A DNA stretch of 50,622 nucleotides, taken from contig JAWPGT010000121.1 in the NCBI GenBank assembly GCA_034638255.1, forward strand, positions 1-50,622, written 5' to 3'. The position numbers were made by a program, and so were the translations under genes. Below, piece by piece: positions 21,478 through 41,488 of the stretch (the stretch's first letter is position 1; the number at the start of each line of letters is the position of its first letter). Under the pieces are notes generated by a model. It saw only the letters and a program-made list of their open reading frames with translations, ran no database searches and had not been told where the DNA came from. This stretch comes from Coprinus comatus (taxonomy: Eukaryota; Basidiomycota; Agaricomycetes; Agaricales; Agaricaceae).

Positions 21478-23610
21478 AAAGCAATTGTAACTGCGCAGCG
21501 GAGACATGCACCACGTTCCAGGAGGAATAAACTTTCTTGAAGTGATATCCGATGTTGTTGACCACATGTTCTGAACGAGCCAGCGTAGATCGAGTGAAGC
21601 AGAGCGTAGCAGTTGCTGGTTGAGGGGAAAGAAGTCGTTGACGTAATGTCACCAACTGCAAAGTACAGAAACGCACTGACCAGGTCCAATCACGTTGACC
21701 GAACCAGGCTCCTTCATCACTGCTAAAGCTCTCTTTCACTGATTGGAAGCACATTAAATCATCCGTCGCCACCTACATCAACCTTTCGGGGTGAGTTCAT
21801 GCTGTATTTACTCAATCTAATGGCTGAACAAAATCCATATGTTCAGTTGTGTGTTTTTGTACAGTGACTGACCATATCTTAACGGCCCATGGAGTAGAGG
21901 TTATGCAAGAGATTCACCTCATACAAATTAACTCCCAAGAACTACGGAACTTTGGCCACTGAGTACATGATACAAGCCATCGCTGAAAACATCATCACCC
22001 CTCCTCAACAATACACACCCCCAATCACAATCACTTTCGACGAAATTTGCACCAGCTCACTGTCCATGCTGCTCACAGTAATGTCGCTTATCGGAAGAAG
22101 GGGCTGGGATTGACTAGAGTCGAGGCGTTACAGACCTTGGAACTGGGGAAATGAGATAGAGGCTCCAGGAATCGACACATGTTATTATCTGGTGAGTTCG
22201 ACTGCGTACTCCCAAAGCTCACTCTCGCTCTCAGCCAATAACATCACTTCAAATTTATGTTGCAATCACAGCTAGCATCGTGTTTCATGAACCTATGCTT
22301 CAAGCAAGTGAATTGTCAAGGTTATTATGGTGAACAAAAGGACCAGTAATATTTATCTTGTAAGTTTCTTCTTACCTTGTTCTACACCATCGATCATCTT
22401 CACGTACTTTGATAAACATTTTTCATCTACAGGAACCTCCAGGAAACCCCTAAACTCGTGAAAAAGATACGTACGTTCTCAATCCTACTACAGAAAATAG
22501 ATGTATCTGTATCTTTTGTATATTCGGTTTTGTGGCATCGTCTATGATAGACCACAGAGATTGTTGGCTGTCTCTCTTGACACTGCAGAGATCGATAATG
22601 TCATTTCGACAGAGGAGTGAAATTGGTCTGTATGTACCCTTGAAAACGAGGTGAGTTTTACGTTTTTTCTTCTTTCATTTCTTCTTTCCTTTTCCCTCTT
22701 TTTCATATTCCATTTCCTGAAACGCATACCCATCTGACATCGTTTTAAAGTAACTCATTTCAATACTTAATGCGTACCACGATCTTTGATCGAATCGAGT
22801 GTCACTGACATTGATTATATCCCGCCAACTTCTACGCCCTTCGACGACCCTCGTACCAAGAGTTGCGATACAGTACAAGACCATCTTCATCATCACGCTC
22901 TTCCTCAACTTTCGAATCAAACGGATTCAACTTCCTATTAGGAATCCAGTTTGGAGTGTTCCTTCATGTTGGTTGACCTAATTTAAGCTATGTATCGCCC
23001 AGTTTCGCTTATATTCCTGACTGTGGTATTCAACAATGTCTCTTTCGCTGAGGGCCACAGGTACGACTCCTTTCATAACTTTAATTTCAATACACTGACG
23101 TCTCATCGTACTCACAAGGATTCCCTCAATAGTGATCTATGGCAACAACAAACGAGAAACAGCGCAACTGGAGTACTGTGTATCTTTCATACAAATCACC
23201 CCGCTATTATAATTTGTGGTGCAACCTTATAGTAGAAAGATGTACTTGGTTACACTAATGAATACGTTTGCAGAGAAGAGGTTTCAAAGCGGGAAACAAG
23301 GACCATGTCGGTGTGTGAGACGGATACGATAAGTATGTAGAACATATATTCCATCTCTATCGGTTTAGTACAATACCTTTTTCAGCGACTCCTGTTTCAT
23401 TCCTTGTTTCCTTAACTTTCCAATGATAAGTATACCATCTCAACTCTTTGAGGGCTCAAACATGTATTGCTTTAGTGTTAAAGACAATCACATATACTAG
23501 CATCGAACTTTCCTGCAATCAAGAGTAGGAAGAATATTTTATGCCACCCCTAATATTTCCGGAAAATCACCAGATCGCAATACCATGTTTTCGTTACACG
23601 AATTCTGTTC
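21478..23610 (+). pseudogene. Segments D and C, copy C3 (near-identical to 6297-8480)
   Basis: Base by base this stretch follows 6297-8480 with only scattered substitutions and a few small indels, for example a deletion in the D part near 21640 and a missing GTTTCTCGTTC-type stretch near 22197. The coding traces are the same as in C1, with the same deletion relative to C4. The block therefore duplicated after C1/C3 had already decayed. Confidence 0.5.
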
Positions 23611-23622
23611 CAACACGAGTGG

Positions 23623-25527
23623 TTAAGCCTGAGGACCGGTCAGCTCTTCGGCATGACAATCTGTAGATAGAGATGGAGTCGATGGAGTACTTTGTAGATC
23701 TTGTACCGCAGAGGGCAATGCTTGGTTTACGATCCCAAGTCCAACGCCGTCTGGTTGTGAGGAGGGTGTAATAACGTGTGAGTCTGGACTGGTGGATGTC
23801 TCGTTGGGAAGAGGTGATGTAGGTTGACCGGGTGCGGAGATTGAAATCAGATTCGTGGCTAGTGGGATTTCTGGGCTAGCAGGCACGACTGAAACACTAT
23901 TAGATGAATGTTGTTCGAAATCTTGCGATGATGAGAGAACGGGTGAAACTGGATTTTGAGCACCAACGCCCAATGTCGTAGCTGTTTCGTGAATGTTGTT
24001 GGATTGCAAAGGAGCTGGCGAAGAGGGTGTAGTGGATGTGAGAAGAGCTTCAATAGAGTGCATTGTCGGAGTGACTTGGCCAGTTGTCTCATTGTGTAAG
24101 CCTGTTTCATGAAATTTGTTAGATTGCAGGGCAGTTGACAGGGAAATGATAGGATGCGGTGTAGTGGCCATAGGTAGATTCTCAGTAATGTGTGTTGCTG
24201 AAACGATTTGGCCAGTGTGTTCAACTTTGAGTAGACTATTAGATATATTACGAGAGGAGATAAACTTGCAACGTACCAGAGGTGGATATATGCTCTGCTT
24301 TTCCAGATCCTTCACCACCAGACTCAACAGCCTCATGAATTTTCCATCCCTCCTTCAATCTCACGTTGAAGTTGTCTATCAAAGCCCATACAGACCTCAA
24401 GTCTTCATGATGGCCAGGTTTAGGCAGTGTGTGTGGAATGGTGAAGCGTCTTGGTTGCAGGACAGAAAATATTGAGGGCGAGTGTTGAAGGTGTTCTTCT
24501 GCAGCAGAGAGTATTGCGTTGAGGGTTGTTTCGATGGAAGGGAGTATACTGGATAGCCCCCATGAGTGTTGTAGGATGTGTTTGGTGTAGCGAAATATGC
24601 CATCCAATGATCTTTCTTTGCCAATGAGACGCTTCGAGGCAAGGTTTTCTATGATTTTGAGGAACCGGTCTGCATCGTCTGAGGAGTAATGGTGGTCAGA
24701 GAGAGATGGCAGAGTAGATGAGAAGACGAACACCAGTTAATAAAGCATTCATCACATTCCACAAGCAGCCTGCCAAGTGTTGGTGCAACATCTTTGTAGT
24801 GCACAAAGTCCACAGAAGGAAAGACATCGTTGAATATCCAGACCAAGTCTTCACACCCATGCTCTGAGCTGAGTTTATCCTGGAGTTTGTTGCAGAGATG
24901 ACGTATGTGAGGAAGTGATCGAGTGGTTGGACGCTTGCACACCTCTTGCAAAATAGGACTTATCCCATCGTAACACCAAGGGTCTTGATCGATCACATGA
25001 CAGGCAACAGCAACGGCATTCTCTGCAGTGACCCACGTATTCTCAGAACTCCTCAAGCCAGTAGCAATGTCTACTAAGAGAGCTAGTGCAAATATTAGTA
25101 AAGGAATATATATATGGCATATAATAGACTTTACCTGTTCGAGAATCACGGTCCATATCACAAATGGATTTCTGCAAAGCCGAAATATCCGACAGAGGTA
25201 CAGGACGTCTCAACGAGACAGCTGACCTATTCCATTCCACCGTTGCATCAATCACTGCCTTTGCACGAATCTTTTGGATAATTTCAGTATGATTGAGGCT
25301 ATTCTCTCCTTCAAATAATGCCAATAAATCTTGCTCCTCCCAATTCCACTCGAGATCAGCAGATGTATCCTTCGCTTTCAACTTCATCCGTATCCCATGA
25401 CAAGAAGCAAATATCATGCAAGAGTACGCATCCAGGGCAACTGTAGTCACCTGTCTGTACTCACGCGATATCCACAACAATGATTGATGTATTGATTCCA
25501 CAGCCCCTGCTCTCTCTTTCCACCTTT
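23623..25527 (-). pseudogene. DUF6535 gene B2, 3' half (cut by the KDZ element)
   Basis: This is the part of B2 downstream of the transposon insertion. It begins, in minus direction, at the target duplication with KERAGAVESIHQSLLWISREY, matching the B1 residues after GMKRW. It continues to a GTAAAG donor near 25134, an exon from about 25080, and the Ser/Thr-rich tail ending at 23623. Besides the insertion there is a second lesion. A TC run at about 24697-24706 is one repeat shorter than in B1, which moves the following SLSDHHYSS.. block out of frame. The frame change seen in B1 near 10455 also occurs here (about 24770), but the CTGCAG that could serve as acceptor in B1 is altered. B2 is dead as a gene. 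Confidence 0.7.
25520..25527. repeat. Target site duplication, left (CCACCTTT)
   Basis: The eight bases CCACCTTT directly precede the left inverted repeat and are repeated at 37043-37050 directly after the right one. The paralogue B1 has a single CCACCTTTT at the matching place (near 11198), which is the expected empty site. Confidence 0.9.
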
Positions 25528-26458
25528 CACCTGTGGTTCCCACACGTGCCCTAGGATAGTAGGCGGTTTAGCGAGCCCTTTCCACCTACAAGATTAGGCA
25601 TTTTTAGTAGTTCTCCGGGATCGCAAATGGATTGCAATACCTCAATGTCTTAGACGTGGTCGCGTCTCTCCCTATAATTATATTATAATACAATGTATAT
25701 AGGTCTATCACTTCATTGCTCTATACAACTATGTTATAATCATGATCTTATATGTCACCCATCATGTGTATGTTTTCCTCACTCAGAATTTCAATCAAGG
25801 TTCGGGCTCCTCCTCATTGTACATACTACTCTGTAATATTAATCTTTTGGTCTTTCACACCTGTATATGTTGTAGCTATATGTTAGAATAGGAATTTATC
25901 TTATGCCTTGGGAAATATCATATGGTACTCAGTACGGTTGAATCCGGAACTCCGAGTCCCACGGTGGGCAATCTACATACATATTGTGATATGTGCTACT
26001 AATCACAACTTCGGACTCCTAAGCCTTATGAAAACAAACAATATGTTTTGCACAACACATACCATAGCTGGTAATTTTTCGCAATTAAACCCCGCCTGTG
26101 GTTCCTTAGAAACGACAAGCTTCCTCAATGTATATTTAGTACAGTCCTCGGAGTAAGGACATCTATCATTACGCCGTCTATTACTGATCGGATGTAGCTA
26201 TTTATAATAGTGTTTTTATTTTTATTCTTTCATTCTCCATTTTCTATGTTATATAATATTCACTTGCACTGATTCCTACTTGAGACATTAATAGTACAAG
26301 TAGCAATAGTAGTTATAGGTCATAAAGAGCTTCAAGTATCATGACCCGACCAGAGGGAGGAACTGATTGTCCCACTATCAACGGGCAGCAGATATATTTT
26401 AATTAAAGATTACATCCGCCTGTCAAGGTGGAACTAGTAACTACCTGTCAACGGGCTT
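25528..26458 (+). repeat. Left terminal inverted repeat of the KDZ element (931 bp)
   Basis: The reverse complement of 36112-37042 matches this stretch along its whole length with the coordinate sum constant at 62570, so there is no indel. An 82-codon reading (25908-26156) appears in both copies but has no sign of being a gene. The inner end carries three related motifs: ATCAACGGGC near 26379, CCTGTCAAGG near 26419 and CCTGTCAACGGGC near 26444. These are candidate transposase binding sites. Confidence 0.9.
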
Positions 26459-26631
26459 AGAACTCAGTGGTCACACGTCAGAATTTGAAAAGGAAGCGTA
26501 GGCGTGGTTACCTCTGCAGGATTTCCTGGCCATGTACTATTTTTAATTTATATCAGACATAAAGTTTAATCACTCAAAACGGTATTATTGGGTGCACAAC
26601 TACATTGAAGGAAAACACGATGAGAATAAAT

Positions 26632-28771
26632 CTACCTCACAGGAACTCTGCAACCATTGAGTCGAGTGCTTCGGCGAGTTTCCTCTGTAGGCGGAACGTT
26701 CTCTTTCAGACTTTTACGTGGTCGGGGCGGAAGTCGAATTTTCAAGCGAGTACTATTATTGTCCGATGAGAGGGTAGGCACCATGGGGGTGTCAGTGTCT
26801 GGGAGGACGGGAGCCCTCTCCGTGGGTGGTGCAACATTGGAGAGCGCCAGGAGGGCTGGATCAATGACATCATCGGTTATGAGATGTGTGGGTATGACGG
26901 ATTCAGAATTGTCAAAGGGTGGGGCAGCAATGGTATTTGGATCCATTGGAGTGGTCGAAGAAGCTTCATTAGTTCTGGCGAAGGGTAGAACTGTTGACAA
27001 CACATTGACAGGAGGGTGTTCAAGGTTGACAGCGGATGGGGGAGTGGGAATATTTGTTGTCATGTCAGCTACATCCGTGACGTTTGAGAGAGGAGGAATA
27101 TTGGGAGTATCAACAAAGTTGACATGATCAGTGGCATTGGGTGGCAAGCTCAAGACATTGTCGGGGGGATTGACATTGAAATTGGGATCATCATGTTCAG
27201 TGTTGCTGAGTTCAGAGTTGGAGACACCTTCAGCAGAATCGGCAGCCATGTCAATGTCGAGGGAGTTGGGGGCGTTGTCAGCGGGGTAGATGGGGGGATT
27301 AGGTTCATCAATGTCGGTGTCAGAATCACTGTTTACAAACTCCGAGGAGAGTTGCGGGCGGCTAGCAGGAGGGAACTGACGAATTGCCAATGCCACTTGA
27401 GTATTCTTGTCAGAACGTTCCTTACGAGGAACACCGATAACACCGCCATTCTGTCGGATCTCATGGATCTTCACTTTATGAGATTGAATTTGATCAGCTG
27501 TCATCACCTGCCAAAAACAAATTTTGGCATGTAATGCATCCTTCAACCGTTGCAAGTATTGGACGTTTGGAAGATGAGTAGGACTGGTGAAAGGGATATC
27601 AGTGGGCCACCCGACTAGCTGAACATGATACTTGATGACAATCCTGTCATCATAGTTATCATAGTTCATACGAACATCGTCTCTGCCCAATATAGCTTCT
27701 AAACATAATACTATAAGTATAGTCTAAAAATAATTGTGCAATACGTACGAAGGCCTTTGGTAATATAATCACGACATTGCTTTCGGAGAGTTTTATTGTT
27801 GATATGTTCAACTTCACCTATACAGGATTTAGAATAATGAATGAATGAAGATTAAAAGAATTTAACACTCACCTTGGCGTCGACTAGTTGAAAAGACTTC
27901 CATCCGAGCAGCTACCTCAACTGGATTGTACCCCAAAGATCCTTTCGTAAAACCTCGCAAATTCTCGGATTCAAAAAATGCAGGTGGAAAGGTATCGTGC
28001 ATATGTCCCCGTGCGACAGCCAATAGTGTCATAGCTCCAGTTCTTTTCCCCATGAATGATGCCTAAATTACTAGGTGTTAATAAAGTTGTCAGAATAAAT
28101 AAATAAAGACTTACTTCTTTTTCAAGACGAGCCACGGTACGATTAACATCCCGGGCAGCACTCCTGTTAGTCGGACGAGCTCCTTGTTGCTTGAGTTCAC
28201 GCCGAGCCATTGCAATTTGCAACACACGAGCTTCTTCTTCTGGTGCAAGAGGGCGGTGATTCCTATCAGAACGATCCTGGAAAACCATTGCTCGAAGCTC
28301 CTTTAGCTTGTAATTGTTCCCGCCAATGGTATCTTGAACAACATATTAGTTCCGATCGAGTGAAGACAATAGAAAACTTACTGAGTTCTGCAGCTTTTGC
28401 GGATACCTCAGCCTCAAGTACGCTCAGTTTCCTCTGACGCTTGAATGAGGACCCAAAAAGGACAGTGTTGAACACCTTTTTCTCATCGGCGGCATACTTC
28501 TTAGCAAGGTCTTGAATACGTTGTTCGTGCTCAGCCTGTAATTGAGCAACTTCATCATCAAGTGCAAGCTGGTTTGCTTTCCTTTTTTTTGCCTGAAGGG
28601 CTAGAGTCTTCTTCTCAGCATCACTTCGATAGATTTTCTTCCGAGAACGTTGAGGTTGTACAGGCTGCAGAGGGTTCCGTAATGCATACGTAGCATCTGA
28701 GATTGGTGGTGGTGAGATGTGAGAGCACGTGACGGTGTTGAGGTCCTACCTTGCTCTTCATCGTCGAACAT
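26632..28771 (-). CDS. KDZ-element cargo: 626-aa uncharacterised basidiomycete protein
   Basis: Six exons join without a break: 28771-28750, 28696-28382, 28332-28115, 28062-27873, 27817-27749 and 27698-26632, giving 1881 nt including the stop. The start MFDDEEQ is the only ATG that joins in frame. Residues about 8-112 are a charged coiled coil (Lys/Glu/Gln-rich). The middle reads HRPLAPEEEARVL, then GAMTLLAVARGHMHDTFPP. Residues about 281-335 hold the block NYDNYDDRIVIKYHVQLVGWP. I recognise this pattern from a large family of hypothetical proteins in mushroom genomes. The last 280 residues are Pro/Ser/Thr-rich and disordered and end in a basic RLPPRPRKSLK..RRSTRLNG stretch, a likely nuclear signal. 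Function unknown; a role in transposition or chromatin is inference. Intact, unlike the transposase. Confidence 0.75.
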
Positions 28772-29138
28772 TCTTTCTGTACTCCAAGGAGGCGAGTATT
28801 TGGTGCTCTCAGTTGGTATGTTTATATATCGTCCCTCTGTGTATTTCTTTTTTCAAAATTGATAACAGGGATAAAGCATAAACAAATGTAATATCCGCCA
28901 TGTAATGTCACTTCAAGACGCCGTGCATTAGAAAGAAAAAGAAGCCCTTCCTCTAACTCTAATTTCTGGCAGGTGTAACCATGATATATCGCCGTCCATT
29001 CTTTCTTCCTTCCCCCCATCATGAAATCTTGCACCGACAAGGTTGAAACCGCCAGTTGTTCAGGTGAGCAAAGTTGTTCAACATTTGCAACAATTTTCTG
29101 ATACAACTTATGCAGCACAACCAGAGTCCCTCACCACC
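28772..29138. promoter_or_regulatory. Shared divergent promoter region of the two cargo genes
   Basis: The 626-aa gene starts leftwards at 28771 and the RNase H1-like gene rightwards at 29139 (or 29043). The 367 bases between them must hold both promoters. I see no certain TATA box or named operator. A minus-strand reading at 28822-29118 crosses it but is probably chance. Confidence 0.35.
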
Positions 29139-30495
29139 ATGGAGGCTATCTACTCTGATGCTCAAAATTCTCTTTTTGACTCTGACCTCCCACGTTATCC
29201 TTTCTACCGTGCTCTCTCTGGACCCGCTTCCAGTTTTAATAGCCAGCCTAGTTGGCTGGTACGCCCTTTAGGCCCTAATCCACGTGTTGGTTGGACCACG
29301 GCCATGGATGAGTGTCAATGTGAATGCGCTCCTGTGGTATATGTTGTTTTTTCCGGCAAAATGATAGGAATCCATGTTGAGTGGTGAGTATATTCATTCC
29401 ATTTTTACTATCAACATTTTCTAATCAATACTTAGGGACAAAATCAAGTTCATTAAGCAGCATATACCATCTCCTCGATTCAAGGGCTATCATGCTATGG
29501 AGGATGCTGAGTTTGCATTCGCTCAGGCCAAGTACTTCAACCTGATTGGCGAATCTATACCTGATGATTGGAAAAACCATCATCTCGTCATTCCTACACT
29601 CACCAGATGCAAATTGGATAGCAAGAAGAAGGCAAAATATAGTACAAAGCATTCTGAATCCACTACTCCGGACAACTCGCACGCGCTTTCCAATCCGATT
29701 GCTCCGCCACCAGTTTTCCCATTGTCACCCGCGCCCCGAAAAACATCCAGACCTCGTAAGGTAGTCACACCTCCACTGTCCTCCCCTGAAGTTACCCCGC
29801 TTCCTTCTGTAGATAAAAAACCGAGTTCTGTCGACATTTTTAGTTTGCGCGCGCTTGCTTCTGGAACTACACTTGACAAGAGTACCGCAGAACTGCTTGC
29901 TAAGCGAAATCAGTCTCCTCTTCTTGATGAAAAGGTCTCTATCATGGCTGATCAGGCTGATAACCACTACCATATTGTATGTGTGGGCCGTTATCCTGGT
30001 GTGTATCATGGTCGGTAAGTTTCATTTTCCTCCTTTCCGCCTTCCTCCCTCATTCGTTGGTTCTTTTGGTAGTCGCACTGCCCAATTGAATATGGGAAGT
30101 AGTCCTGATGGACAAATCATCAAAGCCGGTTCTACAAGGAGCACTGCAAACATGTTGTTTGTAGAACTTTTCATGGATGGAAAGATTATTTCAACCTCCC
30201 CTACCCCCTCGGTTCTTCAATCCCCGCCTATGTATGAGATCTCAGTTCCCATCATCCCATCCAAGGATCAGTCCTGGTGGGTCATTCCGTCTGGTCCTCG
30301 AGTCGGACTCTGCTATGACAGGTATGTGTGTGCTTATCCAAAAAAGACCAAATTAGACTAATGGTTTCTTGAAGGCAAATTGCAAATGTTATTGCTGGGT
30401 CCGCAAATATTGATGGAATGGTGAAGTGTCCGACTTTCGAGGAAGCCTGTTCCATTTTCGTAACAATGTATATGACTGGTGGGATTACTATGTAG
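29139..30495 (+). CDS. KDZ-element cargo: triple RNase H1 N-terminal-like domain protein
   Basis: Four exons, 29139-29383, 29436-30014, 30073-30321 and 30375-30495, join in frame to 397 aa. An in-frame ATG-equivalent further upstream (29043) would add 32 residues. Three modules share the pattern of the RNase H1 N-terminal hybrid-binding domain, an aromatic-V start followed by a G..G turn. They are VYVVFSGKMIGIHVEW (about 67-82, followed by FKGYHAMEDAE), YHIVCVGRYPGVYHGR (about 260-275) and WWVIPSGPRVGLCYDR (about 343-358, followed by KCPTFEEA). Each module is interrupted by an intron after the second base of its last codon, the same place each time. Modules 1 and 2 are separated by a Pro/Ser/Thr-rich linker (about 140-200). 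No catalytic RNase H domain follows. Binding of RNA-DNA hybrid or double-stranded RNA is known for the family; its role in a transposon is inference. Confidence 0.7.
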
Positions 30496-30585
30496 CATGT
30501 ATGATCGTGGTATAGCAGTGTATGTGCATGTGCAATTGAATATGGTTTCGGGCCCTTGAGGCAATTTTGGTATTTTTGAAAATGT

Positions 30586-30719
30586 TCAGAATTTTTAATT
30601 TAACAATCAACCCGATTGACGGAAGAAGTCAGAATTTTTAATTTAACAATCAACCCGATTGACGGAAGAAGTCAGAATTTTTAATTTAACAATCAACCCG
30701 ATTGACGGAAGAAGTCAGA
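30586..30719 (+). repeat. 43-bp tandem repeat, three copies
   Basis: The unit TCAGAATTTTTAATTTAACA.. starts at 30586, 30629 and 30672, followed by a partial TCAGA at 30715. The three copies are identical. Each contains CAACCCGATTGACGG, which resembles the GTCAACGGGC motif of the inverted repeats. It follows the stop of the RNase H1-like gene by 91 bases. Confidence 0.9.
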
Positions 30720-31780
30720 TCTTCAAGATTTAATTGAGCTTAAATGACTCGGGATCTTTTTCTAGCCATATCAGGCAATCCCTGACATGGGCGGGATCCC
30801 GACTCTGTCCCGCTCTCAGATATCTCTCCCCTTGTAACATGCCAATAATTTGGTATTATTCTAGACTCTTATGCTAGAATATACTGGAATACATTAGATA
30901 CAACACTGATGGGCTCTATACTGACACTGTCTCAGTGTGAAGGACAGTATAATTGAACTATCACCCGGGTTACACCTGTAATATATCAGTACAAGTAATG
31001 GCCGGAGAGCCCAGTAAAAAATTGAATTACATTTAAATAGACTGAAACATACCAAGTATACACTCCCGCCCCAATGGATAAGATGACTTTAGTATAAAAT
31101 AAAATCGACATTTATATTCAAAGTCTACTTATATGTGAAATTATACAGTCAGTTCTTTGAACCATGCCATGAGTTTGTGCTCTAAGGTGTTTAAATAATC
31201 ATATCTTTTGAATTTAAATAGTCATCCATGAGTAGAATGAAATATGAAAAATGGTTACATTGCTGAACCGAAAGCCCTTCTTGGTACCAACTGTACTTGT
31301 GTACACATTACGGGCCTCGTTGTGTGTACCTTCCAATATATTGATGATCGGGTACTATGTTGGCCAAGATTTATATAAATCTGGTGTATATCATGCATTT
31401 AACGGTAAGTGCTTAAAGCGATCATCCAGCAATCGTTTGACAAAATATTTCTATATGTTTGTGACATAGCATTACTTATGTTCAAATATATTTATCAAGT
31501 CTGTTTGTGTCATTGACACAATAATTGTACTCCCACGACTTATTATTGAATAACCGTATGGTTTAATGTTAAGAAATAGCTACATTCAGGAAAACTTGAC
31601 CCAAGGTGACCGTACACAAAATATTCATTTATTTACAGCATTATACAGAGACAAACACTTGTTTTTCCATTCCACTATATTTCACAGACTCTGAGAGTAA
31701 AGGGCGATTTGGTTGGTGAGTATATATAAGACGCAGACCGGGTCATTTGTAGTGTTAAGAATATCACAAAAAGGGCCCAT
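30720..31780. other. Non-coding stretch inside the KDZ element
   Basis: AT-rich sequence between the tandem repeat and the transposase. The only reading of note (31251-31469) lacks support and has no recognisable family. Presumably this holds the transposase promoter and untranslated leader. Confidence 0.4.
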
Positions 31781-31789
31781 TATCGGTAT

Positions 31790-34700
31790 ATGAGTTCTCG
31801 GTGGTGGCCGTGGGAAGATATCAAAGATCAACGTGTCGCGTCGTACTTTGTTTATCAACTCTCCTATACTACACAACCTTATCATATGGGCAAAGCTCCG
31901 CTAGGAAAAAGGTTCAAACTTGCTAAGGGCTTTCGTACATGGAGACATGTTGGTCATTCCAACCACAGTGGAACTGTTGTCTATGGCCATCAAAAGGCTC
32001 AAGTCCACTCGCGTTCCACAGAGAAGGACTAAACCATTCCTCCTGTAAGATATTTATCCTTTATATTTCACCTCCCCTATTAACAATACTAATAGACTCC
32101 AAACCTTTGGAGCATGGAGAAGAATACCCTGAAGACAGTAATATGGCAGACATTGATGATGTTATGAGTGGTCGTGATCAAGTACCACTCAGTAATGCGG
32201 GTGGAGAACTTTTTGACATCATCTCTGAAGAGTTACGGGCCAATGGGTGGGTTTACTCAACATATAATACAATCTAGCTCTTAACTAATGAATGACAGAC
32301 AACCTCGTCAAGATACCAGAGATAGGCGAGACCGTATCATACGGCGGAATGAAGGTTTCAAGAATCAAATCCCCCATATGACCGACAGTTACCTTAAATG
32401 GAGCCAAACCAACTCGCATAAGGATCAGGAGGCCTCAAAAACATATTATGAATGGGACGGAAATGCTCTACCCGAAGATATTCAAAGTACGTATGACATT
32501 CTTGTCATTGATACATATTGTGAGTTTCAGCTCCAAAATACTCTGTTTCTGACTTATCTAATTATTTCATAGGGTTGGAAGTCAAGTCGATTCCTCTTCA
32601 CAAAGGCGACTACAGTATCGCAACAAGTCTCATATCGCAAGGGTTAATACCTTGTTCTCCCTACCACCCTACAGTTGCCATCACCATCCGAGCCTTAGAA
32701 TCTTTTCGAGTATTCTCACTACGTTGTCCACAATTCACAATACAAATGTACATCAAGTCAATTGCTGACTTACACCAGGTATGTATTTATTACATTCGAA
32801 CAATTTTTTTGGCCTCATTGGGAGGTTAGAAACCATATAAATCATACCTTACCAAGCAAACTTCAATATGCTTCGATGTCTACTTAGCTATCCTCGAGGA
32901 GATCGATAATCGCTTACACAAGGCACTAGCTAGAGATGCACCACATAGCCGATTGAAACGTGCTTGCCCGGCTTGCACTTATGTAGTAGAAGGAGAACCG
33001 GACATCGTTTCAGCATCCTTTTCACAATGGATGGGAATAATGCATTGAAACGCATGCCTAAACGGGAGTCGCTTGGGGAGAGAACAATTGGGGCAATAAA
33101 TGAATTACCTGATGATCGGACTGGGAATTATGACTACTACATTGATACCAAGGAGGTCAATAGATGGTTGCCTAGTAAAAAGAACTCTCATGCTGCCAGA
33201 AACACGCATAATGGAGAAGAGACTATGACCAAAGTCCGTTAATTATTTTCTTTTTATTTCACCATTACTGATCTTTATTACATAGGATGAAGACAGTCCT
33301 TGCTCCGAAAAATGGAAGAACATGTCTGAAAAGGCCACCGCAAAAGCATTTGGGATGTTTGAAGAGACGGGGGTATTTGTGGCAGTGTGCCGGCATGGTT
33401 TCATTCTGGTATATACTGACATGATTCGGAGTGGCGAAGGGTAAGATTCTTCTATTTATCATCAATATCTATACATTCTAATCATTCTATATACTAGTAC
33501 TCAATACCCGCTTGCTGTTGTCAACACTCTTATGGATACATTCGGTAGGAAATTGGGAGGAGGTTACGACATAGGATGTCGGTTCAAAACATCATTAGCA
33601 AAAAGTGAACTTGGGACTCGTGCTCGCGAGCTTGAGTACACTTCTCTCATTGGCGCTTTTCATGGACATGCCCATAATCGGCAGTGTCAACTTTCTTTTC
33701 TTACAACATATACTGAGGGTCTGGGTTTAAGTGATTTAGAAGGCTGTGAACGTCTATTTTCCCGATCAAATGAACTTGCATCAACAACGCGACATTGCAG
33801 TACCTTCCATCGGCACCAACGAATTACCAGCTATTTCAAACATTTAGATGAAACCGACACATATGAGTCACTTAGTGAGTCACCGTACATAATCTTAATT
33901 CCTGTTGAACTAAGTGACTTTACAAAGGCAAATATCTTGTTACCAACCATAAACAAGCCCTCGACCTCCTAGCTGATAAGCCTGCTTTTGAAAAAGCTAA
34001 ACACAGCATGGGACTTGAGGATGATTCGGTATTTAAGAAGTGGCTTGATGAAGAACGCGAATATCTGGCAACGCGTGGTGTGGAATCATTACAAGAAACT
34101 TGGGAAATGGAATACTTACGACATCTAAAGGACCTGAACAATGCACAGTATGTTTTATTTCTTTTCATATATATACATAATAAATAACATGGAATTATAG
34201 GAACAAGCTTGCTTCTACAAAGAAATGGTTCATTGAAACGCCCACTGAGCCATCCGACATTAACACTGCTTCTATTACTGCAAAGCTGGAACGAGAACGC
34301 AGGCATGCTCTTGAACTCGAGACATCAAGCATGAATCGTGTTCAAGAACTAGAGGTTAAATTGGGTATCACAAAGAGATGGGAGGAGGGTGGCGAGAAGT
34401 GGAACCAGGTATCTGAGCTGATAGCAACTCGCGATTATCGGCTGAAGCTTGGGAAGCTGGAGCAATTAGTTGTGGCGCGTATATTTGAGCTTGGGCGAAT
34501 GAATGGATCACAAAAGGGTACACAAAATTTTTATCATAATAAAACACATTAACATATATATAATAGGCTATAAATTGCGACAACAAGTCGCTAAGGCACT
34601 CCAAGCTCGATCTAAGGCTGTAAAGACAGCCCTGAAAGAGTATAACAATGCTGCAAAGCGTCTCGTTCCACCCCGACCCTGCTTAGAATGGCATCAGGTT

Positions 34701-35234
34701 GTCGAATATGCGTTCCTATCAGAGTTTGAGCTACTCGCTAATTGTTCTGATGATATCCGGCAAAAATCATGGGCCCAACCAGCGGCACGACTACTGATGG
34801 ACCAGTTCTTCAAGATGGAACGAGCACAGGAAGAAATAGTCCGTGTGGAAGTGGAAACGACCCGATTTCTTACTTATATGCGTGATGAAGAAGCGTTCCT
34901 TGACGTGATGGAGGAACGTCTTTCGATTACAAACCCTCCTCTTGCCCACCAGATTCACCTCCGAAATCAAAGATTAAAACTCGTCAATCAGCAACATATA
35001 ACTGTACTCGAAGCAGCTGGACTTCTGTCATCTCCTGGCCAAGCTGTCACCCACGTTGCAGGCGATTTAAAGTCAACTTTGAGCAATCAACCAACCTTGC
35101 CACTTCACAAACCTCTCCCTCTCACTTCGGAAGACCAGCATGCACAAGAGGAACTTGAAGATGAAGAGGCCGATGAAGAACTATGTCACGATCTTGAGTC
35201 TATCCTTACTATGTCAGAGGAGGTTGTAATATGA
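31790..35234 (+). pseudogene. KDZ transposase (CxC1-like), one frameshift
   Basis: Exons: 32096-32246, 32299-32519, 32573-32778, 32857-33233, 33286-33440, 33498-33874, 33928-34147, 34201-34517 and 34567-35234. Except for 32857-33233, which has 377 nt where 378 are needed, all junctions keep phase. Family landmarks in order: HMTDSYLKW; ISQGLIPCSPYHPTVAITIR; ACPACTYVVEGEP; FTMDGNN; EKWKNMSEKATA; CRHGFILVYTDMIRSGE; GGGYDIGC; FHGHAHNRQCQL; LSDLEGCERLFSRSN; VVARIFEL; PPRPCLEWHQVVEYAFL; acidic C-terminus. The putative DDE residues are Asp at 33030, Asp at 33568 and Glu at 33739 or 33748. The frameshift at 33001-33008 falls just before the first Asp. The first exon (31790-32044) does not join in phase, so the N-terminus is uncertain. 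Role of the family: cut-and-paste transposition in the nucleus. This copy is probably inactive unless the frameshift is an assembly error. Confidence 0.85.
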
Positions 35235-35329
35235 GCAGTCTGATGTGTTCCCTAAGCTATCCTTAATCACTGTTGCTATTGACTTTTGCTCTTATGTTTT
35301 CTGTTTACTCGTGTACTTATTTGTAGCCC

Positions 35330-35581
35330 TTGCAGTGTTGTTATCATATCTTGTGTACTGATCTGTTTTGGGAGTCCGTGATGCCATCACCTGAGAATCT
35401 GAGATCTTGGTGTCAGCACCCTGACCCTGATATACGTCAAAAATTGACGATCACATCAATCTTATATATCGCAAGTGAACTTGAACAAACGACAGGATAC
35501 TATGTACATCTACGATGTGTAATGACCCGCAAAGGTAACGACCAGTCCCTCCTTAAAATCTCCACCAAATCTCAAGAATAA
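35330..35581 (+). other. Region after the transposase, weak plus-strand reading
   Basis: A reading of 83 codons with an internal ATG at about 35381 follows the transposase stop by some 95 bases. It has no introns, no recognisable family and no paralogue here. It may be 3' untranslated sequence. Confidence 0.2.
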
Positions 35582-35586
35582 ATACT

Positions 35587-35922
35587 TCAATGATAGCGAG
35601 TGGGATAACTTGGCTGTGTAGTATTCCTAATATATAAAAAATACGAATGTTATACATTTCTTGAGACCGCAGATAACAAGGAACATACGCGTTTGTAGAG
35701 GGATTGATAGTATCCTTCATAACAGTTGACTTAACAAAGAGATCTATAAGCACAGATATATCCCCATCTACAAAGGACAACGTGGCTGGAGAAGTAGGGA
35801 CTTCTGTTGAGTAGATCTTTATTAGTATAATTAAATGGAAAACAAATAAACAATCACTTACGTGGAGGCGTTGATTGAGATTGAACCGACTGAGTTGAAA
35901 AGATCAGGCAACCTGACGACAT
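35587..35922 (-). CDS. Possible 71-aa three-exon protein next to the right TIR
   Basis: Exons 35922-35862, 35803-35689 and 35626-35587 total 216 nt and stay in frame from ATG to TGA. They use GTAAGT and GTATGT donors and CAG and TAG acceptors with introns of 58 and 62 nt, the normal size here. The protein begins MSSGCLIFSTQSVQSQSTPP and has a helical middle (DISVLIDLFVKSTVMKD). No family recognised. It sits on the opposite strand to the transposase, about 190 bases inside the right inverted repeat. The clean phase joining supports it, but its small size keeps the call weak. Confidence 0.35.
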
Positions 35923-36111
35923 TGTAGGGAGGGGAATAATGGAGGTCCTGAAGCCTGAAGTCCCGTTTGATTCTTATACAACAATGAACATAATTCGTGA
36001 GAATGTCAGAATTAAGGAAGCTTCAATGTATAAGCATTGCTCCATGGAAGCCGGAGAGTGGAGTAGAGCGTGGCCTTGAAGGATTTCAAGAGCCCGTTGA
36101 CAGGTAGTTAA

Positions 36112-37042
36112 AAGCCCGTTGACAGGTAGTTACTAGTTCCACCTTGACAGGCGGATGTAATCTTTAATTAAAATATATCTGCTGCCCGTTGATAGTGGGA
36201 CAATCAGTTCCTCCCTCTGGTCGGGTCATGATACTTGAAGCTCTTTATGACCTATAACTACTATTGCTACTTGTACTATTAATGTCTCAAGTAGGAATCA
36301 GTGCAAGTGAATATTATATAACATAGAAAATGGAGAATGAAAGAATAAAAATAAAAACACTATTATAAATAGCTACATCCGATCAGTAATAGACGGCGTA
36401 ATGATAGATGTCCTTACTCCGAGGACTGTACTAAATATACATTGAGGAAGCTTGTCGTTTCTAAGGAACCACAGGCGGGGTTTAATTGCGAAAAATTACC
36501 AGCTATGGTATGTGTTGTGCAAAACATATTGTTTGTTTTCATAAGGCTTAGGAGTCCGAAGTTGTGATTAGTAGCACATATCACAATATGTATGTAGATT
36601 GCCCACCGTGGGACTCGGAGTTCCGGATTCAACCGTACTGAGTACCATATGATATTTCCCAAGGCATAAGATAAATTCCTATTCTAACATATAGCTACAA
36701 CATATACAGGTGTGAAAGACCAAAAGATTAATATTACAGAGTAGTATGTACAATGAGGAGGAGCCCGAACCTTGATTGAAATTCTGAGTGAGGAAAACAT
36801 ACACATGATGGGTGACATATAAGATCATGATTATAACATAGTTGTATAGAGCAATGAAGTGATAGACCTATATACATTGTATTATAATATAATTATAGGG
36901 AGAGACACGACCACGTCTAAGACATTGAGGTATTGCAATCCATTTGCGATCCCGGAGAACTACTAAAAATGCCTAATCTTGTAGGTGGAAAGGGCTCGCT
37001 AAACCGCCTACTATCCTAGGGCACGTGTGGGAACCACAGGTG
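36112..37042 (-). repeat. Right terminal inverted repeat of the KDZ element (931 bp)
   Basis: This is the mirror copy of 25528-26458. At its inner edge the 20-21 bp motif AGCCCGTTGACAGGTAGTTA occurs twice in tandem (36091-36110 and 36113 onward), while the left end has it only once. The extra copy lies outside the 931-bp match. Confidence 0.9.
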
Positions 37043-37050
37043 CCACCTTT
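37043..37050. repeat. Target site duplication, right (CCACCTTT)
   Basis: Second copy of the 8-bp duplication, directly following the right inverted repeat; it continues into TCACACC of gene B2. Confidence 0.9.
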
Positions 37051-38075
37051 TCACACCATTCGTATCATATTCCAACCAACTGCTGATGCCCTTCAATGTG
37101 TTCCAGAAGTCCGATTTCATCTTCAATAGCAGCAGATTGATGGTAAGGAAAAGCTTTTGGATGATTAAATGAAAAAGCCATGATTGAGGTGATCGGTATG
37201 GACAAAGGACGGGTCGAGGGTTGTTTGCACCAGTTGATTTTCCTACAAAGAAGAGGAACTGGCAGGTCGGGAGGACTGTGGTACAGACAATAAATCCACC
37301 AGATAGAGCAACAAGGAACGTCACAGGTCCAGAGGCAAGTGACTTTGATTCCCATTGCGAGACCATGAACCCAACGAAGAAGAGACCAAGCGCAATCAGT
37401 AGGAAAAGTGGTAACATATTGAGGATGATCAAAACACCCCACTTCCGGAGACTCTCATGACGTTGATGTTGTAGAAATAGGTCATCTTTATTCGATACAC
37501 CTGTGATATTCCTACTAAACTCTTGCAGCCATTGTAGACACAGAATCCCTCCCAGAACCGAAACAAGACTAAGCGCAAGGCTGACGGAGAATAACACGTT
37601 GATGCGCTGGGAGGAGATGGAAGGCGTCATTTCTGGGTTGAGGGGAATAGGAATATTTGCTTGTGGATTGGATTGATTATTTAGTTGCAGGATGATTGTT
37701 CGTAGTAAAAGTACTGTCATCTCTGCTGGATCGCCCTGGATCGTCCTGGCGGCTTCAATGGTAAAAGCAGTGAGAATTGCCGAAAAGAGACCAGCCTGTA
37801 AAAGATTATCATGAGTATATTGTACAATCCCAGAGTCAATGCTGCTTACAAAAATGAGAAGATTATTCAATCCTTTTGTCCAACTCTCGTATGTTTCCTT
37901 TGTCAAAGACTCTGCCTTCCTGTTCAGCCCTTCCCATCGTTTCGTGTCCGCATCCTCATCCACAACCTTCAAATTCTAAGCATACATATATTAGTGTTTA
38001 TAACATGATTCTCCAATGAGCTTGACTTACCGGATCTATACCTTCAAACGCTACATTCCTACCATCAGCAATCAT
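37043..38075 (-). pseudogene. DUF6535 gene B2, 5' half (cut by the KDZ element)
   Basis: The start is at 38075 (M.ADGRNVAFEGIDP, exon 38075-38031), followed by NLKVVDEDADTKRWEGLNRK from about 37976, an intron near 37800-37853, and the DUF6535 membrane domain to GVKRW at the insertion point. This half has no lesion I can see: all four hydrophobic segments are in frame and closely follow B1. A transcript from here would read a few residues (HLWFPHVP) into the transposon end and stop. A truncated membrane protein of about 320 residues could therefore still be made. Confidence 0.7.
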
Positions 38076-39980
38076 ATTTATCGAATAAAAGGAAACTAGA
38101 CAGTGGTGTGGTCAGGACATTCATTCTAATTCAAGGCAATTACTACAACGTACCATACGATGGCGAGGCATAACAAAGACGTTCGCTGTTATTCAAGCAA
38201 GGTGGAATCAAAAGTTCAAGATGGGGGCGGTTAGAGAGCACTAGCAACATCAATATTCAGTCTTCTCTTATGTAGTAACACACCAGTTTGAATACGTACA
38301 GATCTAGATGTTCAGCGTCTACCAGTAAATCTAGAATGCATTCTCTGGAAAGACATCTATGAATATAGATACATAGTAATGGTTCCAATATTGGTGGGCT
38401 CCACTGTGCGAGATTGCTGGAATGAGTGGATCAGATTTTCTTCAACCATTGTTGCTATTCGGGTCAGACACCCATGCGTTGATTTAGAAACACTCAGTGT
38501 GCGCTTAGCACGACAAGGCTGATAGCCAATCATTGCTCGAGCATATGTTCAGAAGCATCATAGTACTTACCAGGAGACGCCATTGGGGCCATAGTAGATA
38601 CATATCAATCATTCAATGTTCAAACGTTCAACAGCAACTGTCACAAAAATTACACACACACAACCTTATACATGCTGCAGGATACAGTAGTCTTCATTGG
38701 AATACCTGGTACACGTGCCTCGGACTACCAGATAGTAGTCGGTGTTCCAAACCACTCTCCAATCAGTATGGGGGATATCGATCTTCGGCGTGTAGCTTCC
38801 TTAACCGGGTAACCCAGTGTGTGTCATTTGACATGGGAATCATTTAAATTTACGCGATCCTTCTTACATTTCCAGGTTAAACGCAACTGGGATAATCTGG
38901 GATGAGTTTTCACATCATCACCAAACTCAAGTTAGATCTTTCTGTATGAAACTAAACCAACCAGCCTTGACTCTTACCAATGGGCTTTCTTACAGGTCCA
39001 AAAAGACAGTCAGCGCCAGGTCAGCGCCCATGGGGTGAAGCAGAAGAGTCGTCTTTGGTTATGACGTGATGAGTTGATGCATCAACAACAGGACTAAAAT
39101 AGATCAACTTGAATGGTCACAACATCGAGGAAGAAACTCGACATGTAGGCACTGAAAATCTAGAAGCGCGCTGACCAGTTTATGAGGTTCCTCCATTGGC
39201 ATTTTATTACGATAAGACCCTAAAACCAAGTAGTGAGGATCTGTGGCCACATTGTTCCCCAACACCAACAACAAAGATCACGTTTTGGAACAAAATCTGG
39301 AACTGTTGCTACCTGAAGTTTCTGAGAGATGGAAACACTGACAAGAGTATAAAGCACGTCCTTTTCATTTCTATTTTACGACTCTTTCAGTAGATTGGCC
39401 GTGTATGGTTTGGGTAACATTCCTCAGTGTGATCGGTGGATATATTTGAACTATAGTCTATTACTGTTTCAGTGGTCTCTATTCCCCCTTTCTCTTTTTG
39501 TTGCCACTCCATAGTGTAGTACGCTTACTATACTCGTGCTACTCAAGTGGTACCTCCATCACACTATGCTCCTCCCAAATCCCAAATCCAACCCTTCAGG
39601 CCTCAAACATTTATCCAACAAGCCAACCACAATACACATAGTTTTCCTAGACTCGTAATGGCATTATACACTCGTGAGCGTAGTTGAGACAGGTCATATT
39701 GTCGGAGATAGAGCCACCCCGAAAATTACTCAAGGGTTATAATATTCCGAGGCGAAGTCTGTGGATTTATTTGCAGTGGCCGAGGCAAGACAGAAACAGA
39801 GCATACATTAACAACTTTAGGAACCATAGAATTTTAGGAAAAATTACGAATGTTGATACAAAATGACGAAAGTACACTGTGATATTACAATCAGCCTTCT
39901 TTCCTTTTCTTTCTTGTCCAAGTACACGTTACTTTTGCTCGACAATCTCATCATCCACTACCATATACTCATCACCATCC
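38076..39980. other. Gap between B2 and A4
   Basis: It contains the likely promoter side of B2 with the conserved MPRHRM / GTACGT upstream exon near 38150-38175. Past about 38250 there are only short readings (38533-38847, 39196-39393, 39684-39866). The part near 39000-39180 resembles segment D. From about 39860 the sequence is the 3' flank of family A (compare 4200-4340). No gene supported. Confidence 0.35.
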
Positions 39981-39989
39981 GAACCCCAC

Positions 39990-41488
39990 TAATCACTGGC
40001 CTCCAACAATTCCAAGCTCTCCGTCGTAACCATTCCAATAAACTCGTTTTCTCCCATGTCACAACTATTCTCTGCAGAGCCACTAAAGGCACCTTGGCTA
40101 AGAAACGGAGATTCAAGCACATCAGTAGTAGTTGAAGTGTCCTTGTATACCTTGAGACCTCAGACTCTTGCGAATGTAATTCAGAGTGGATTCAATCGCT
40201 CGTGAAGTTTCCATAATTGTATAATTGTGGTGCTGGATATCAACCACAGACTCTGCACCTATTAATACTCCCTCGCTTTCCATTCCTCCCAACAATGAAG
40301 GTTGTGAATCAAAATCGTTGCTATCGTTATAGATATTTCGGCACTCCCACTGGTAGTTGGTTGAACATTTATATTCCTGAGGGGCTTGAATCTCCCTTGT
40401 CAAATAACAGAAAGGTGTTTTCCGAGTTCCTCGAGTAGTAGTAGTAGATCGAGTTCGACGACCTGTGGAAGTCGTAACAGTTAGAGTATTGTGTAGAAGG
40501 TTGCTAAGAATACGCTTGGATACTCTACATAACCCAATAACTTCAACATCAATTTCTATAACTAAATCTTCACTCCTGACTTTTGAGGTCAATGCATCAC
40601 CTGTATGGAAAAAAGCTGAGGTGCGGGTCTCTTCTGACCTACACAAGCGAGCCTGATATTTTGACTTGAGACATATTCACCATCACCATTGTATTCTAAT
40701 TCATCTTCATCAGGTTCAACTTTGACAAAAAAAAAAATGACAACTGCGTCAGAATGAGAGAAATGTGAAAGATGACGAACGTGATAATATTGGTGTCGGT
40801 CTCTTTTTTCTCCCTCCGTGACCATTCCCATATTCCATTCTATCAACACCCTTTCCTTTTGAGGTCACAGCAACCAGGATCGCCATCGCCATATTTGTAG
40901 TAATATGAGCCTGAACAGACCACGGCGGCAATCCAACATGACTAACACAAACACCACTTCCTCTAGGAGGAACGAGTTTCACAAAATAATCATACTCCTT
41001 TTCCTCCAATCCCAATTTCTCCATGATCACCCTCTTTCTGAAAGCTTTCGTACGTGAACAACTATGGTGTGTTACAACACATAATTGACATCGTATACTT
41101 CTACAATCGCACTCAACTCTATAGCCTGGTTGGATAGTACATGATTCGCAAATCTAGAAAAATAAAAATAAAACAAAATTCAATGACAGCATCGGAAAGA
41201 GCGTGTCAGAAATTTCACTTACATATTCCGGATCTCCGTTATTCAACCTTTTCAACCACGCCTTAGAACTCTTTTGGAACTTGGAATCCATACGTAACCT
41301 CTGTCCAAATATCCCGAAACTCGATTTCGAATCTCACTGTTGTCAATGTCAAGTTGGTACAGTGACTGGTCACTACTTGCAGCTTTAGAGTCGTCAACCA
41401 TGGCTTCCAGAACACTCGAATCCGCTGCGATTGGTGGATGAACAGGATCAAGGACAGGTGAAGGTGAAGGAATAAGTGGTAGTGACAT
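39990..41488 (-). pseudogene. Family A copy A4, close relative of A0
   Basis: The N-terminal exon begins near 41488 (MSLPLIPSPSPVLDPVHPP..EAMVDDSKAASSDQSLYQLDID) and changes frame near 41300, where A1 has FFKLYRSPFG. The Cys-rich exon after ATCTAG (41156) is open here, ICESCTIQPGYRVECDC.., unlike in A0. The linker 40749-41030 is intact. The acidic tail EPDEDELEYNGDGEY is followed by a frame change near 40610, identical in position to A0. A further indel in the tail near 40155 gives an early end (RSQGIQGHFNYY). So A4 is less damaged than A0 but not intact. Confidence 0.55.

Follow-up and report, generated by a model that had tools for sequence, protein, structure and literature searches.

A KDZ-superfamily transposon of Coprinus comatus, inserted in a DUF6535-family gene, is very probably a recent arrival and a three-gene unit

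When a large DNA transposon holds genes besides its transposase, are these genes passengers or parts of the element? The question is raised by a stretch of 50,622 nucleotides from the basidiomycete Coprinus comatus (assembly GCA_034638255.1, contig JAWPGT010000121.1, positions 1 to 50,622 of the forward strand; the whole stretch is hereafter called the window), in which a preliminary description had recognized a complete, recently inserted KDZ transposon with extra genes. The name KDZ reportedly goes back to Iyer et al. 2014. Our analysis indicates that this is very probably a recent KDZ-superfamily insertion in a member of the DUF6535 gene family, made up as a three-gene unit in which two genes, here called A and B, serve the element alongside the transposase. 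Genome-wide searches were run on the assembly from which the window comes (35.7 Mb in 134 contigs, designated C plus a number), and the copy in the window is referred to as E1.

The transposon spans positions 25528-37042 of the window (11,515 bp). Aligning its left arm (25528-26458) with its right arm (36112-37042) in reverse complement gave a single mismatch in 931 positions, as had been read by eye; it lies at repeat position 136. The repeats extend beyond that reading to 937 bp (25528-26464 and 36106-37042), with added mismatches at positions 932 and 933 and thus three in total. The 8-bp target duplication, CCACCTTT, is indeed perfect on both sides. When the two flanks were joined with one copy of this duplication, the alignment ran across the junction to three paralogs: the empty site already proposed within the window, at 10601-11783 (86.8% identity over 1190 bp), a second paralog on C91 (88.4% over 1207 bp) and a third, weaker one on C50 (72.4% over 756 bp). 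The right flank codes for a DUF6535 protein, showing that the insertion split a member of this family, while two reading frames of the left flank that were tested against Pfam gave no match. The description of the insertion as recent is likewise supported. The features at and around the borders are as follows.

25520-25527, no strand: left target-site duplication CCACCTTT, from border comparison
25528-26464, forward strand: left terminal inverted repeat, 937 bp, starting CACCTGTGGTTCCCAC, from arm alignment
36106-37042, reverse strand: right terminal inverted repeat, 937 bp, from arm alignment
37043-37050, no strand: right target-site duplication CCACCTTT, from border comparison
37043-37975, reverse strand: host gene split by the insertion, right-hand part, DUF6535 (PF20153, E=1.5e-45)
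10601-11783, forward strand: empty-site paralogous sequence, 86.8% identity through the junction

A genome search for other copies, suggested in the preliminary description and run here with the whole inverted repeat as query, returned 15 matches. Four other full-length insertions (E2-E5) have the same ends and each its own 8-bp duplication, perfect in E2 (TCATAGCT), E3 (GTGCATTT) and E4 (ACAGCGCG) and matching at seven of eight positions in E5, which makes four perfect duplications among the five complete elements. All five start with CACCTG and finish with CAGGTG, and the duplications lie directly outside these ends; the shared ends and separate duplications therefore fix the borders, which had been called exact on the strength of one site, well beyond that site. 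Whether the repeat ends also match unrelated boundaries, which the preliminary description named as grounds for refutation, was checked within this one genome, with the result just given. At three one-sided repeat matches, on C91, C50 and C4, no right end was found. The first 12 bp of the C50 repeat end are altered, no partner for it was found, and sequence common to E4, E5 and the related element E6 follows, so we read the C50 locus as a mosaic.

The closest relatives of E1 are E2 on C3 (17,843 bp) and E3 on C80 (28,007 bp), which are 99.4-99.8% identical to it wherever the aligned pieces are long. They exceed E1 in length by inserts with near-identical direct terminal repeats, of 381 bp in E2 and of 578 bp and 317 bp in E3; the inserts are most likely long terminal repeat retrotransposons and probably arrived later than the KDZ insertions. 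E4 (C69) and E5 (C57) form a sister family whose ends are about 82% identical to those of E1, with stretches of 73-78% identity in the transposase, gene A and gene B. E6, on C91, is 94% identical over the first 130 bp and has kept A and B, beyond which the contig ends in a KDZ fragment. C91 also bears paralogs of the host gene.

Between the inverted repeats lie three predicted genes, whose splice sites were all chosen by eye, together with two smaller features.

26632-28771, reverse strand: gene A, 626 aa, predicted gene model without a Pfam family (exons 28771-28750, 28696-28382, 28332-28115, 28062-27873, 27817-27749, 27698-26632)
29139-30495, forward strand: gene B, 397 aa, predicted gene model with PF01693 in its first repeat (exons 29139-29383, 29436-30014, 30073-30321, 30375-30495)
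31886-32029, forward strand: stretch that probably codes for the transposase N terminus (MGKAPLGKRFKLAKGFRTWRHV..., MGKAPLGKRFKLAKGF...) and is conserved in both E4 and E6
32143-35234, forward strand: KDZ transposase gene (PF18758), frame shifted in E1 (predicted exons 32143-32246, 32299-32486, 32573-32778, 32830-33233, 33286-33440, 33498-33874, 33928-34147, 34201-34517, 34567-35234)
28772-29138, no strand: candidate shared promoter region, 367 bp, between the divergent start codons of the A and B gene models
30586-30719, no strand: 43-bp unit in three copies, between gene B and the transposase

At the place of the 43-bp units, 86 bp are absent in E2, indicating that the copy number of the unit differs between copies of the element.

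The KDZ family (PF18758) matched the window at 33286-33441 (E=1.3e-16) and 33445-33969 (E=9.9e-44), and the E2 transposase covers all 217 of 217 profile positions (E=2.1e-72), bearing out the identity first assigned to the element. Its description as complete stands for the structure and fails for the transposase, since the E1 gene carries a one-base frame shift in exon 32830-33233, ahead of most of the catalytic domain, at a place where E2, E3, E4 and E5 are all unshifted. E1 as assembled is thus probably not autonomous. Both A and B have open frames in E1 and also in E2. In E2, the transposase frame stays open over 880 codons, counted from an internal start codon, an insert lies between the transposase and the right end, and about 248 bp are gone from or beside the right repeat. 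In E3, the models break off at 76 aa in A, 192 aa in B and 517 aa in the transposase; one insert sits inside exon 2 of gene A, and where the transposase model stops, two of the splice sites used in the E1/E2 model could not be located. Judged by these changes, E1, E2 and E3 are each altered in their own way, yet all are young.

Selection on the genes was measured as dN/dS by the Nei-Gojobori method with 95% bootstrap intervals. Against E6, the ratio is 0.25 for gene A (0.19-0.31, 597 codons) and 0.25 for gene B (0.19-0.33, 384 codons), and against E4 and E5 the two genes give 0.145-0.248, in codon comparisons that are near synonymous saturation. A and B are under purifying selection. The E2 transposase has a dN/dS of 0.07 against E4 and 0.07 against E5, and only 31 comparable codons against E6.

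The arrangement of the genes was then followed through the genome. Gene A gave 86 exon matches at 31 loci, counts that are lower bounds, 70 of 96 candidates having been scored, and the KDZ domain gave 86 exon matches at 49 loci. A KDZ locus lies within 15 kb at 24 of the 31 gene-A loci, where uniform placement, a generous null in repeat-rich DNA, expects about 0.04 per locus. In 23 of these 24 cases, A is upstream of the nearest transposase and on the opposite strand, that is, divergent; in the exception, on C19, A is also about 4.3 kb upstream of a different KDZ fragment. A direct search with B produced 33 matches at 11 loci, every one of them between A and KDZ. Nine A-KDZ loci, chosen for having both genes and including four of these 11, were examined for B in the gap: B-like sequence on the transposase strand is clear at six (C24, C101, C102, C40, C8 and C54, to which E1's B alone aligns at 8e-24 to 0.006) and weak at three (C12, best E 0.057; C11, 0.004; C96, 0.004). 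As the B profiles were trained partly on C24, C101, C102 and C8, the independent strong cases are C40 and C54. A genome search with one B repeat of C102 found five matches at four loci (C102 itself, C24, C19 and C57), all of them inside A-KDZ gaps and on the strand of the transposase, with C19 as a new locus. By this layout the element is a stable three-gene unit, with A read leftwards and B and the transposase rightwards, and the combination of selection and fixed arrangement suggests that A and B serve it; they appear to belong to the transposon's working machinery and not to be passengers.

A similar picture emerges from the relationships among the transposases. We built a midpoint-rooted tree of 33 KDZ domains of this genome, representing 13 of the 24 loci with A and 20 of the 25 without, and it shows two deep clades separated by a long branch with support of 1.000. 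All 13 A-bearing loci fall in one clade (II) together with nine loci lacking A, and the other clade consists of 11 loci without A (Fisher P=0.0016). Across 11 elements, the distances for A correlate with those for the transposase (Mantel test with 5000 permutations, r=0.83, P=0.0002; one query served to anchor the alignments), so that A and the transposase appear to share a long history of joint inheritance. The TET/JBP family is distributed otherwise: Pfam gave no Tet_JBP match in A, B or the transposase, and of the 17 matches to PF12851 in the genome, three of them below the cut-off, none comes as close as 15 kb to a gene-A locus. On C24, a TET/JBP match and a KDZ gene belonging to the other clade are separated by about 7 kb (C24:257066 and C24:264450).

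What the two accessory proteins do can be approached through their sequences. The gene A protein has an acidic, proline-rich C-terminal region followed by a basic tail, and a conserved core with the signatures ALRNP, RTGA..RGH.ND, M.Y.NY...LVGWP, C.W..MT and PRK.RSDK; 37 columns are invariant among seven members. No relative was accepted in Pfam or the PDB: the best PDB match, to 48 residues of DMC1 chains (E=0.16), was rejected as chance, and so were Pfam matches among the seven members, each confined to a single member (0.033-0.064). Its product is most likely a second transposition protein or a nuclear DNA-binding protein, a prediction from these features.

Gene B scores 24 bits (4.6e-5) against PF01693, the RNase H1 N-terminal domain, which puts it above the curated Pfam cut-off of 21, and its first repeat by itself reaches 23.8 bits in E1 and 23.5 in E4. 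Two further stretches resemble this repeat in pattern, and all three are split in the same place, about 16 residues in, by a phase-2 intron, which argues for triplication of one unit. We regard the first repeat as a true member of PF01693 and the other two as probably diverged copies of it. A repeat of the C101 B gene reaches 15.6 bits, and the third repeats of C24, C102 and C8 stay below the PF01693 cut-off. When a profile of the B repeats was compared with 177,635 PDB sequences, the RNase H1 structure 3bsu was the sole match at E<=1. A designed pentatricopeptide repeat (PPR) protein in the PDB matched B at 7.2e-5 with no single stretch significant, and a PPR-like assignment was rejected. B has no RNase H catalytic domain in Pfam, and a search of a large protein database (2671 candidates) returned none at E<=0.01, to which we give little weight since the database is taken as poor in fungal proteins. 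In RNase H1 the N-terminal domain binds RNA-DNA hybrid and double-stranded RNA. B most likely binds one or the other as well, as its domain predicts.

KDZ membership and the 8-bp duplications point to cut-and-paste transposition at the long inverted repeats. In the course that we propose, patterned on the superfamily, the KDZ transposase would cut at these repeats and the element would be pasted in at staggered 8-bp target sites. A would act as a partner protein in transposition. B, to go by its domain, would bind hybrid or double-stranded RNA and either guard the element against RNA silencing or act on an intermediate of transposition. E1, its own transposase frame lost, would rely on transposase supplied in trans if the frameshift is real.

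Several observations weigh against this three-gene reading. Besides the near saturation of the E4 and E5 codon comparisons, the lower-bound gene-A counts and the generous null already given, repeats 2 and 3 of B have no PF01693 match in E1 or E4, and 3bsu is matched only at E=0.3 by B alone and at 0.14 by the repeat profile. An exon-by-exon genome search with PF01693 gave four matches, none at E1-E6, a silence that probably arises because the intron splits the domain. One of the four, C2:273097 (25.2 bits), speaks for the reading: it is about 3.1 kb upstream of the KDZ locus C2:276253-277036 on the same strand and sits where gene B would be expected, although no gene A match was found there. 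A PF01693 match in two pieces at C1:498728-498909 is possibly the host's own RNase H1 gene. Nine of the 22 clade-II loci in the tree lack A within 15 kb; six of the nine are not near a contig end, and at the other three (C17, C68 and C103) the contig ends after 2.1-6.1 kb, a distance to be set against the 4-6.5 kb at which A usually starts. Finally, seven of the 31 gene-A loci are more than 15 kb from any KDZ locus, and five of these lie on contigs where KDZ matched nowhere. These seven loci would also suit a composite in which A and B belong to a different repeat and a KDZ transposon lies beside that repeat or nested within it, as would the inserts with direct terminal repeats in the sister copies. 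We consider such a composite extremely improbable, because A, B and the transposase lie within one inverted-repeat pair in all five bounded elements and E1 has no further inverted repeat pair of at least 40 bp in 23000-40000 of the window. The extra genes had at first been described as unrelated cargo, and fungal DNA transposons, KDZ elements among them, are indeed known to carry acquired genes, for example TET/JBP (PMC12730594). A and B moreover hold no known transposition domain, which would agree with host genes captured once by the lineage and of no benefit to the element. Against this stand the purifying selection on both genes, the position of A by KDZ at 24 of 31 loci in nearly one orientation with B between at 11 of 11, and the divergence of A, which tracks that of the transposase. 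Recurrence in E2, E3 and E4-E6, selection at dN/dS of about 0.25 and the fixed arrangement beside KDZ led us to rule out captured cargo, and a single capture without benefit to the element is very improbable.

Within the reading of A and B as serving the element, two matters of detail have alternatives of their own. The transposase frameshift might be an assembly error and the window copy autonomous, given that the length difference is just one base, that A and B are open in E1 and that its inverted repeats are nearly identical; we find this rather unlikely, and the sequence bears no mark of error. A somewhat stronger possibility, toward which we nevertheless do not lean, is that B acts in escape from RNA silencing and not in transposition chemistry. 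PF01693 is also the caulimovirus viroplasmin family (PMC4289320), the caulimovirus protein P6/TAV has been described as an RNA-silencing suppressor and as RNase H1-like (PMC3836500, PMC7102451), and TET/JBP, the other accessory gene of KDZ elements, is thought to counter silencing by DNA methylation (PMC12730594); binding of hybrids, however, would suit a role in transposition equally well. What B shares with RNase H1 and viroplasmin is PF01693, through its first repeat, and it differs from them in lacking an RNase H catalytic domain in Pfam, in its probable three repeats and in its place in a DNA transposon.

How does this element compare with known KDZ systems? KDZ1 of Cryptococcus neoformans, which has been seen to move, is about 11 kb long and has 241-bp inverted repeats, 8-bp duplications and a CxC1 transposase; KDZ1, KDZ2 and KDZ3 together range over about 9-11 kb with inverted repeats of 241, 139 and 169 bp, and KDZ2 and KDZ3 make duplications of 4-8 bp (PMC12810828). 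E1 resembles the three in its KDZ transposase, approximate size and inverted repeats, and KDZ1 in its 8-bp duplications. It differs from them in the 937-bp length of the repeats and in the CxC1 domain, which is theirs: no CxC family of Pfam matched at E<=1 on the 880-aa E2 transposase, a model without the N-terminal exon. Genes like A and B are not mentioned in the portion of that report used here (PMC12810828). In the classification of Kojima 2025, Kyakuja elements have 7-bp duplications, CA..TG ends and no inverted repeats, whereas Zisupton and Dileera have 8-bp duplications (PMC12730594). The inverted repeats and 8-bp duplications of E1 are like those of Zisupton and Dileera, a likeness by ends alone, and unlike Kyakuja, although the ends of E1 also read CA..TG. 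With the TET/JBP-bearing Kyakuja, Dileera and Zisupton elements (PMC12730594), E1 shares the superfamily and the presence of an accessory gene inside the element, but not TET/JBP itself.

Two reports on Pleurotus ostreatus bear on the same point. In that species, 36 KDZ genes were reported, the intact ones all preceded by a CxC2-coding region (PMC7641404); C. comatus likewise has many KDZ genes in one basidiomycete genome, but no CxC domain was detected in the E2 model, which lacks the N-terminal exon. In 2014, a copy of the P. ostreatus Helitron helpo1.3 was described that is 12.2 kb long (strain PC15, scaffold 1, 3742549-3754728), 10.7 kb longer than its siblings, and holds capD, capE, which has PF01693, and capF, which has an RNase H-like fold and was called a putative transposase; inverted repeats flank capD and capF, and Helitron capture was proposed (PMC4289320). 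Setting our element beside that published description, we find that size, three genes, PF01693 in capE and inverted repeats allow capD-capE-capF to be read as an A-B-KDZ element, which may have inserted in a Helitron. Two points oppose this: according to its authors, copies of these genes are confined to Helitrons (PMC4289320), and the intact P. ostreatus KDZ genes all follow a CxC2 region (PMC7641404). As judged from abstracts, PMC4289320 alone pointed to an A-B-KDZ combination in the literature. A broader scheme, which as a whole we hold to be unlikely and offer as conjecture, would see one deep KDZ lineage with an RNA-directed counter-defence, in which the triplicated B would act against RNA silencing and A would be an obligate transposition partner, while other lineages would use TET/JBP against DNA methylation and the Pleurotus capD-E-F would be the same three-gene transposon.

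In the literature as represented by the sources cited, KDZ elements consist of a transposase, plus TET/JBP in some lineages; here two further genes, conserved and under selection, belong to the picture. A and B offer specific candidates for partners in transposition or for factors that counter silencing, and through them many uncharacterized fungal proteins could be recognized as transposon genes, while a published case of gene capture by a Helitron may need correcting.

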